Part shown: positions 37,215 through 38,912 of the stretch, piece by piece
Layout: each line of letters begins with the position of its first letter
Numbering within the stretch: position 1 is the stretch's first letter
NCBI GenBank assembly: GCA_014762755.1
Contig: JABURI010000255.1
Coordinates: 1 to 38,912, forward strand
Reading direction: 5' to 3'
DNA from: Marinobacter sp.
GTDB taxonomy: Bacteria > Pseudomonadota > Gammaproteobacteria > Pseudomonadales > Oleiphilaceae
Length of the DNA: 38,912 bases
Notes under the pieces: generated by a model
Told to the model about the DNA's origin: nothing
Database searches by the model: none
The model's input: only the letters and a program-made list of their open reading frames with translations
Position numbers and translations under genes: made by a program

Positions 37215-38702
37215 TCAGTGGTCGTAATCGTTGTAGGTCATGGCCACGGCACGGAAAATCGCGCGGCCCTTGTTCATGGTTTCTTTCCACTCGAGGCGCG
37301 GAACCGAGTCCGCCACCACACCGGCACCCGCCTGGATGTGCAGGGTGTTGTCCTTGATCACCGCGGTGCGGATGGCGATGGCGGTATCCATGTTGCCGTT
37401 GAACGAAAGGTAGCCCACCGCACCGCCGTAGACGCCTCGTTTGACTGGCTCCAGTTCGTCGATGATTTCCATGGCCCGGATCTTGGGGGCGCCACTGAGG
37501 GTGCCGGCGGGCAGGGTGGCCCGCAAGACGTCCAGGCAACTGGTGCCTTCTTTCAGGCGGCCGGTGACGTTGGACACGATGTGCATGACGTGGGAGTAGC
37601 GTTCCACGATCATCTTGTCGGTGACCTTGACGGTGCCGGTTTCCGACACCCGGCCGGCGTCGTTGCGGCCCAGGTCGATCAGCATCAGGTGCTCGGCGAT
37701 TTCTTTCGGGTCGGCCAGCAGTTCGTTTTCCAGGGCCTTATCCTCGGCGTCGGTGGCACCGCGCTTGCGGGTGCCGGCGATGGGCCGTACGGTCACCTCT
37801 TCATCCTCCACCCGGGCCAGGATCTCCGGGGACGAGCCGACGATGTGGAAGTCGTCCAGGTCCAGGAAATACATGTAGGGCGACGGATTCAGTACCCGCA
37901 GGGACCGGTAGAGGTTCAGGGGCGGTGCCTCGAACGGGATGGACATGCGCTGTGAGATGACCGTCTGCATCACATCGCCGTCCAGCACGTATTCCTTGAT
38001 GCGGTCGACGGCGGCTTCGAAACGGTCCTGGGTGAAGCCGGAGATGAAATCACTCTCGTCCACGGCCTTGCCACGCAGGTGCTCCGGAGTGCGAGGCGCG
38101 TTGGCAGTCTGCCGGTGCAGGCGCGCCTCCAGCTCGTCGATGCGGGTCTGGGCCTGTTCGTAGGCACCTTCCATGGCCGGGTCGACATGCACAATCAGGT
38201 GCAGCTTGCCACGCAGGTTGTCGAACACCACGATCTCATTGGAGACCATCAGCAGGATATCCGGGGTGCCAATCCGGTCAGGCGGGCAGGAGTTGCGCAG
38301 GCGTTTTTCGATGTAGCGCACGGTGTCGTAGCCGAAATACCCCACCAGGCCACCATTGAATCGGGGCAGTTCCGGCAGGTCCGGGGCGTTGAAGCGCTGC
38401 TGGTACTCGTCAACGAATGCCAGTGGATCGTCCACCTCGGCCTGTTCGATCACCTTGCCGTTCTGACTGACCTCGATGCGGTGATCAAAGACCTTGAGAA
38501 TCTCCTGGCTGGGCAGACCGATGATGGAATAGCGGCCCCATTTCTCGCCGCCCTGGACGGATTCAAAGAGATAGGAGTAGGGGCCACTGGCCAGCTTGAG
38601 GTAGGTGCTCAAGGGCGTATCCAGGTCGGCCAGGACCTCGCGATACACGGGGATACGGTTAAAGCCGGCGTGGGCGAGCTCGGAGAACTGCTCGGGTGTC
38701 AT
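37215..38702 (-). CDS. trpE: Anthranilate synthase component I
   Basis: This 495-residue enzyme turns chorismate into anthranilate with ammonia from TrpG. The N-terminal half carries the tryptophan feedback site (YSYLFES, the LLES-type motif, and WGRYSIIGL). The chorismate-binding half includes [14 protein letters not shown], the PIAGTRKRG motif, [13 protein letters not shown] and [15 protein letters not shown] lies 9 bases before the ATG. It follows a leader region of about 210 bases holding a Trp-rich leader peptide, so attenuation in addition to feedback inhibition is likely. Confidence 0.97.
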
Positions 38703-38735
38703 GTGTCGGTTTCCTGAATTCTGATCTGCATTTGC

Positions 38736-38809
38736 ACGGACGGGCCGGATGCCCTTCCGTCGGGTGGTACGGTCTGGACAGGCGTGCGCCTGTCAGCCGC
38801 CGGGCCTGT
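38736..38809 (-). promoter_or_regulatory. Candidate trp attenuator structures
   Basis: Downstream of the leader peptide on the minus strand lie: an ACAGGC next to the leader stop (38809-38804); a perfect hairpin with arms GACAGGCG (38794-38787) and CGCCTGTC (38784-38777); and a second hairpin, ACGGA-GGGC with GCCC-TCCGT, at 38760-38736. Both ACAGGC copies can pair with the same GCCTGT, giving exclusive folds. The Trp-codon stretch can also pair its GGUGG with a CCACC near 38763-38767. No U-run follows any stem, so termination may be Rho-dependent or control may act on trpE translation. Confidence 0.5.
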
Positions 38810-38890
38810 TCAGCCGGTGCGCCATCGCCACCATCGTGTTGCGCGGGTTGTGAGGATGCCTCGCGCTGCAGTCAGATTCAGTCCCTGCAC
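38810..38890 (-). CDS. trpL: trp operon leader peptide
   Basis: This 26-residue open frame begins with GTG (38890-38888), 9 bases after GGGAG, and ends with TGA (38812-38810), 107 bases before the trpE start. Its C-terminal part is TRWWRWRTG, with three Trp codons within four codons, the hallmark of a tryptophan attenuation leader. Regulation of trpE by a leader peptide is known in enteric bacteria and proposed in Pseudomonas. Ribosome stalling at the Trp codons would change which downstream hairpins form. The promoter must lie beyond the right edge of the window, only 22 bases away. Confidence 0.78.
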   Translation of the reverse strand: MQGLNLTAARGILTTRATRWWRWRTG

Positions 38891-38912
38891 GGCAGGAATC
38901 TCCCGATAACAA

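Follow-up and report, generated by a model that had tools for sequence, protein, structure and literature searches.

Control of the trp operon by early termination at a leader peptide is the textbook form of attenuation. In Pseudomonas putida, which belongs to the order considered here, trpE and trpGDC are reportedly regulated by attenuation, as the title of a 2001 paper by Olekhnovich and Gussin has it. Classical attenuators with U tracts are described for the trp operons of Corynebacterium and Streptomyces (PMC1262725), and premature 3′ ends are reported for trpGDC of Pseudomonas aeruginosa beside a possible GTG-started upstream open reading frame (uORF) (PMC8297930). Attenuation via overlap with a ribosome site is credited by a 2016 note to earlier work (Lopatovskaya 2010) that outlined it (PMC4833913). 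For Bacillus subtilis, sequestration of the trpE Shine-Dalgarno sequence by RNA pairing at plentiful Trp is described for the TRAP system, as is control of translation initiation by the peptide coding region of the anti-TRAP rtpA leader via tRNA-dependent stalling (PMC11255114). In the toiL-topAI system of Escherichia coli, the ribosome site of the downstream gene is described as pairing with the uORF RNA, with relief by stalling on the uORF (PMC12121999).

Here, we analyzed a Trp-rich leader frame upstream of trpE in Marinobacter sp. (contig JABURI010000255.1), a genus placed in Pseudomonadales (NCBI). The analyzed stretch, herein referred to as the window, is one whole contig of 38912 bases, and all features of the locus are on its minus strand. 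Comparison of related genomes makes it probable that this leader controls trpE as a Trp-responsive translational attenuator and that the leader 5′ end would hide the ribosome site of trpE. The gene names gph, trpE, trpG, trpD, trpC, and obgE used below come from recognition of translations, without a protein family search. The principal features of the window are the following.

38890–38810, minus strand: Trp leader peptide frame, MQGLNLTAARGILTTRATRWWRWRTG, with a GTG start, 26 codons, and a TGA stop, upstream of trpE
38881–38868, minus strand: leader codons 4–8, or leader nucleotides (nt) 10–23, complement of the trpE ribosome-binding block
38833–38828 and 38824–38822, minus strand: leader Trp codons
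38833–38822, minus strand: TGG TGG CGA TGG, all three Trp codons together with the Arg codon CGA
38729–38713, minus strand: trpE ribosome-binding block GCAGATCAGAATTCAGG, predicted to pair with the leader segment
38715–38712, minus strand: AGGA, the trpE Shine-Dalgarno sequence, its 5′ part overlapped by the block GCAGATCAGAATTCAGG
38702–37215, minus strand: trpE (anthranilate synthase component I), recognized from its translation, heading trpEGDC

Predicted leader pairing at the trpE ribosome site

For the comparison across the order, 194 genomes were searched, and a strong trpE match was found in 149 of them. The set contained 78 upstream regions, 60 taken from these genomes and 18 added to them. 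A frame with an RWRW-like ending was found in 52 of these regions by a loose motif, so that some of the frames may be false. The endings include RWRW, CWRW, and SWRWRH, and the RWRW/RWRR-like endings sometimes contain a single Trp. The 26 regions without the motif were dropped, and 25 genera of these were used as a control.

In 38 genera, represented by one genome each and including the window, the segment that precedes the Trp codons by 85–12 nt showed better pairing with the cognate trpE positions −30 to −1 than expected from all swaps. The cognate residual was −3.66 kcal/mol (permutation standard deviation 0.50; 0 of 5000 permutations as low) and −3.39 kcal/mol without the window's family. 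In a second test, restricted to 37 genera because the window has too little upstream sequence for the longer segments, the cognate pairing reached z −7.1, and the signal was strongest in the slice that precedes the Trp codons by 59–35 nt (z −5.7). A set reduced to one genome per family gave z −3.9 (n = 24). No cognate signal was found in the control segments further upstream (z +1.0 and +1.9) or in the gap (z +0.4). In 24 of 53 leaders, the start codon of the leader is itself part of the best duplex, according to a hand count with predicted starts.

Within Marinobacter, the leader was found in 94 of the 110 regions upstream of trpE and was absent from 16, the window being included. This sample is biased towards the leader, since 53 of the regions were obtained via the leader string CGATGGTGGCGATGGCG, a route that yielded 60 regions, 7 of which were dropped as having no trpE. 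Additionally, 23 regions were chosen mostly because the leader pattern was missing or unlisted, and 14 of the 124 genus genomes were left out of the presence/absence count. Among the 33 regions from a plain trpE search (29 loci and 4 added), the leader was present in 28 and absent from 5. A trpE match was found in all 58 genomes of this search, in a few of them via a paralogue only.

Natural losses of the leader provide a second line of comparison. The tree of 109 genomes shows 7 changes between presence and absence of the leader, 6 of which are required by well supported branches. All 16 leaderless genomes have the gph stop just before trpE (judged by eye). The window's leader pairs with the ribosome block of the leaderless genomes at a mean of −12.0 kcal/mol, vs. 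−17.8 kcal/mol for the genomes with a leader. The TCAGA core of the block was found in 83 of 93 leader-bearing genomes and in 1 of 16 leaderless ones. In independent pairs of genomes, this core tracks the leader in about 5 of 6 pairs and never goes in the opposite direction (sign test, median p 0.06). Complementarity to the leader decays where the leader is lost, and thus the trpE ribosome block seems to be maintained by the leader.

Inside the genus, leader nt 7–26 are predicted to pair with trpE −42 to −1 at −9.8 to −21.7 kcal/mol (one genome for each of 33 leader types). RNAalifold recovered four core pairs of the long-range pairing from the 94 leaders, and 91.3% of cells are paired in the 14-pair helix between the leader and trpE. 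When trpE −45 to −1 was shuffled, at most 5 of 100 shuffles were as good as the natural sequence in 51 of the 94 genomes. Cells changed on both sides together with the covariation score were reached by only 2 of 500 shuffles, both helices being taken together. Among 17 divergent lineages, the ribosome block prefers the lineage's own leader over that of the window in 9; this preference amounts to at least 3 kcal/mol in G106, G144, G082, and G020, where the ribosome block has changed.

A rewritten trpE ribosome block was observed in the divergent Marinobacter loci L032 (G020), L105 (G106), L101 (G144), L127 (G082), and L162 (G125). In G106, the paired block is located upstream of the Shine-Dalgarno sequence and does not touch it.

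In total, the predicted pairing rests on comparative evidence, namely that the leader is conserved, that a terminator is lacking in Marinobacter, and that the leader and the ribosome site show co-variation. This co-variation was found across genera, was mixed among divergent lineages, and was weak inside the genus. A sequence-only reading of the window had offered control of trpE translation by stalling as one of two options, and this option is favored by the own-site pairing across genera and by the decay of the block in leaderless genomes.

Proposed mechanism and its alternatives

According to the proposed mechanism, the 5′ end of the leader would pair with the trpE ribosome-binding site and keep trpE closed by default. 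The pairing part would be the leader start region in a good part of the genera and mainly codons 4–8 in Marinobacter. At Trp starvation, ribosomes stalled at the Trp codons would occupy the leader 5′ end, so that the pairing would be blocked and trpE would open. Because the stall is downstream of the paired segment, a queue seems to be needed, and the occupation would be achieved most simply by at least two queued ribosomes. At ample Trp, ribosomes would clear the leader and the pairing would re-form. In this scheme, we infer in which direction control acts and that it responds to Trp, as well as the queue and the transcript start.

The outcome of folding with masked ribosomes depends on the stretch that is scored. 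In the 94 Marinobacter genomes, trpE −28 to −9 was paired with the leader at a mean of 0.67 without ribosomes, 0.65 with one stalled ribosome, and 0.23 with two queued ribosomes. The corresponding values were 0.74, 0.74, and 0.01 for the window and 0.42, 0.36, and 0.19 for 37 other genera. Opening of this stretch by at least 0.2 was found with two ribosomes in 51 of 94 Marinobacter genomes and in 12 of 37 other genera, and with one ribosome in 0 of 94 and in 4 of 37, respectively. The openness of the Shine-Dalgarno core, −16 to −7, changed with two queued ribosomes from 0.36 to 0.47 in the other genera, reaching a gain of at least 0.2 in 11 of 37.

A number of results weigh against the pairing or against the queue. 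RNAalifold found no covarying pairs within the genus, and pairs changed on both sides were reached by 312 of 500 shuffles, both helices being taken together; the weakness of covariation here is attributed to letters that hardly vary in the genus. No gain with the own leader was found in 8 of the 17 divergent lineages (G125, G138, G118, G077, G090, G006, G132, and G036), and for the G020 leader the ribosome site of the window is a slightly better partner than that of G020 itself. Swaps of leaders and ribosome sites among the Marinobacter leader types gave a mixed result, and they discriminate poorly because most of the types share one ribosome block. The duplex of the window, −19.7 kcal/mol, was equalled by 99 of 7711 windows of the same contig. 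One genome without the leader, G096, keeps the ribosome block. A background bias was found in the comparison across the order, both for the leader paired with trpE coding sequence (z −2.3 twice) and for the 25 genera without the motif (z −2.2).

The masking tests have points of the same kind. All of them use equilibrium folding and assumed ribosome footprints, and the −28 to −9 measure was picked after the −16 to −7 result had been seen. In Marinobacter, the openness of the core −16 to −7 changed only from 0.47 to 0.50 with two queued ribosomes (at least 0.2 in 5 of 94 genomes), and leader pairing of this core had a median of 0.475 and exceeded 0.5 in 32 of 94. With so little effect on the core, the Marinobacter helix would cover mostly the stretch just upstream of it.

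A translational attenuator of this type is probably widespread in the order. A broader proposal can be made only tentatively, and we consider it possible though doubtful as a whole: much of the Pseudomonadales would share a queue-gated trpE switch, in which the start region and the ribosome site hide each other, a terminal W-CGA-W sequence causes the stall, and only a queue uncovers trpE. The pairing letters would have been rewritten often with the layout kept, and in Marinobacter the terminator would be gone.

Translational control is better supported by the comparisons than termination. Nevertheless, closure of translation might have Rho-dependent termination in or before the untranslated trpE mRNA as its main output, and both layers could coexist. 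Such an output is known from E. coli, where pairing of the toiL uORF is described as repressing translation and leading to Rho termination (PMC12121999), and it agrees with the near absence of an intrinsic terminator, found in 1 of 94 genomes. On the other hand, no sequence feature that demands Rho was noticed, no Rho-site search having been made, and we regard this alternative as somewhat unlikely.

Nascent-peptide arrest of the TnaC type, in which the stall would be set by the peptide sequence and not only by charging of Trp-tRNA, is improbable. Several of codons 13–19 keep their amino acid despite synonymous changes, and RWRW/RWRR-like endings recur across the order, sometimes with one Trp, both of which speak for such a peptide. 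However, a biosynthetic gene is expected to answer starvation and not excess, and RNA pairing may explain part of the conservation.

Similarly, the leader could be a coupling element that does not sense Trp and through which any reading of the leader would raise trpE translation. A ribosome masked at the leader start region alone lowers the pairing from 0.67 to 0.34, as this alternative would have it. However, no leader without three Trp codons was found among the 110 regions: the 94 leaders contain them, with the reservation that the pattern requires these codons, and by eye the other 16 regions have the gph stop directly ahead of trpE. Trp endings also recur across the order. Simple coupling is quite improbable.

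The remaining alternative depends on the gap between the leader and trpE, which contains the following feature.

about 38794–38777 and 38761–38736, minus strand: two hairpins of the predicted fold, no T run after them

The sequence-only reading had described two strong hairpins and duplicated ACAGGC elements competing for one GCCTGT. Both hairpins are present in the predicted fold of the window, and the elements were located by eye (ACAGGC at 38809–38804 and 38793–38788, GCCTGT at 38783–38778). However, the hairpins and the repeats belong to a region of variable length and sequence, shorter or different in other species. The gap spans 48 to 177 nt, and the 13 of 94 genomes in which it measures 48–49 nt group together as a single clade in the tree (support 92/90); in our judgement, a gap of this size is too small to hold both an antiterminator and a terminator. 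Competition between ACAGGC and GCCTGT was rejected as a general switch on account of this variable gap, and on the comparative evidence the conserved element is the predicted helix between the leader and the trpE ribosome site.

The same reading had noted that no run of four T occurs between the leader stop and the trpE start, and this was confirmed: the longest T run there is 2 in the window (by eye), and a pattern scan of 38650–38912 found neither terminator-like nor sigma-70-like sites. In the genus, a run of four T was found in this interval in 3 of 94 leader-bearing genomes, and lax matching of the sequence that begins at the Trp codons gave a terminator-like site in 1 of 94. In the order-wide set, terminator-like sites were found in 11 of 38 genera by lax rules and runs of four T in the gap in 22 of 38, and thus the order may be mixed. 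The 213-nt predicted fold of the window has −92.3 kcal/mol and z −4.18, with 0 of 200 shuffles as low. Classical transcription attenuation, with the gap hairpins as terminator and antiterminator, is very unlikely: a leader with tandem end-product codons is there (94 of 110 regions) and the window has two strong hairpins, but no intrinsic terminator with a U run was found in the window and no conserved alternation of antiterminator and terminator in the unconserved gap.

Leader frame and upstream region

Further features of the leader in the window are the following.

38904–38900, minus strand: GGGAG, Shine-Dalgarno-like sequence of the leader, its recurrence in relatives judged by eye
38896–38884, minus strand: 5′ mini-hairpin CCUGC-CGU-GCAGG, spanning the leader start codon
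38866–38841, minus strand: internal hairpin GCGCGAGG...CCCGCGC, directly 5′ of the Trp codons

The GTG-started frame of 26 residues with a ribosome site and a WWRW end, proposed from the window sequence, was located with all these parts, and it is conserved in the 94 regions given above. The leader start position is GTG, ATG, or TTG in all 94 leaders, and the first Trp codon follows at a distance of 57 nt in 92 leaders and of 69 nt in 2. The reading was to be refuted by a lack of conservation of the frame or the Trp codons in close relatives, and both proved to be conserved. All 35 named matches of the 25-base leader pattern belong to Marinobacter. In 92 leaders, changes at codons 13, 14, 17, 18, 24, and 25 are mostly synonymous, and because of these mainly silent changes the leader behaves as a translated frame. 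Silent variation and a fixed start were both found, as expected for coding constraint on the leader. The leaders of L103 (G127) and L104 (G077) carry an in-frame insertion of 12 nt near their middle, with the frame and the Trp codons intact.

The codon CGA was found between the second and third Trp codons in 40 of 40 leaders from trpE-found loci, where the pattern fixes CGN and leaves the third base free. The codon preceding the first Trp is CGA in 36 of these 40 leaders. In trpEGDC, CGA accounts for 4 of 84 Arg codons. Slowing of the ribosome is one possible role of this rare codon, but it may also be kept between the Trp codons for another reason. CGA between Trp codons was also observed in 34 of 46 order-level leaders.

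The 5′ mini-hairpin is invariant in all 94 aligned leaders and hence holds no covariation information; moreover, the leaders were located with a pattern that itself contains the stem of this hairpin. For the internal hairpin before the Trp codons, 92% of cells are paired in 72 distinct leaders, a weak signal (0.923, vs. a mean of 0.911 and a maximum of 0.919 in shuffles), and its role as a regulator is unproven.

Two other candidates were rejected. An upstream TTG/GTG with AAGGA was considered as the sole leader start; the conserved GTG is the first start in the open frame in 6 of 28 leader-bearing relatives (L019, L028–L031, and L035). Further copies of the motif were considered as extra leaders, but 6 of 7 matches without trpE read as obgE and the seventh is inside another long frame. 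The 17-base string CGATGGTGGCGATGGCG was observed inside the obgE-like gene of L112, L113, L119, L138, L147, and L161, where it encodes a glycine/aspartate-rich stretch in a frame other than the Trp reading.

The contig ends at 38912, only 22 bases past the leader start, and the promoter region is outside the window. In relatives, the last two Leu codons of gph are CTT TTG, followed by TAA, in 99 of 107 readable genomes. Both codons are uncommon in trpEGDC, where they account for 5 and 9 of 119 Leu codons, respectively. The sequence TTGTTG-TGTAAT over the gph end was the best sigma-70-like match in 44 of 93 genomes, counted over the classes listed by a looser script, and a stricter promoter scan of one relative, L003, found no promoter-like match. 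Possibly, the gph end carries a −10 element overlapping the stop codon; a transcript start at the gph end, ahead of the leader, is suggested by these codons but no more than suggested.

Downstream of trpE, trpG and then trpD and trpC were found on the minus strand. No match to Rfam at gathering scores was found in the window, neither to T-box nor to other Rfam leader models; the single match at E up to 10 was che1 (E 7.4), on the opposite strand and far below the gathering score. In three genomes listed as 99% complete (G035, G088, and G089), a search with the first 150 TrpE residues found no match at E 1e-25. These organisms are possible Trp auxotrophs, or their trpE may be divergent or missing.

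Comparison with known systems

The Marinobacter leader shares with the E. coli-type trp attenuator a short leader with tandem Trp codons ahead of trpE. It differs in the terminator hairpin with a U run, which is absent from the window and nearly absent from Marinobacter. In the ermC and ermB systems, the stalled ribosome itself opens the stem. In Marinobacter, the stall would be downstream of the stem, and opening seems to require a queue. Both have in common that stalling on a leader would act on an inhibitory stem of the downstream gene, which in ermC/ermB-type translational attenuation it is thought to destabilize (PMC5118997).

The two B. subtilis systems resemble the proposed switch in its separate parts. 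The anti-TRAP rtpA leader is alike in the use of a peptide coding region, but it is described as acting on a regulator gene in a Firmicute, whereas the Marinobacter leader would act on trpE. The TRAP system is alike in hiding the trpE ribosome site, but its sensor is the protein TRAP, whereas in Marinobacter the sensor would be the ribosomes on the leader frame (PMC11255114). No account of such a pairing switch between a leader and trpE was found in the literature searched, which left out most subscription journals, and priority is therefore uncertain.

The closest known mechanism found appears to be toiL-topAI. In that system, toiL is described as sensing many antibiotics along its whole frame (PMC12121999), whereas the Marinobacter leader would likely sense Trp at the end of the frame and target a biosynthetic operon. 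If this reading is true, a large related group of bacteria senses the same signal as the classical attenuator with the same kind of leader and acts on the start of translation, with the pairing letters changed repeatedly and the layout kept. Given where the stall is located with respect to the pairing, ribosome queueing, and not a single stall, can be tested directly as the switch.
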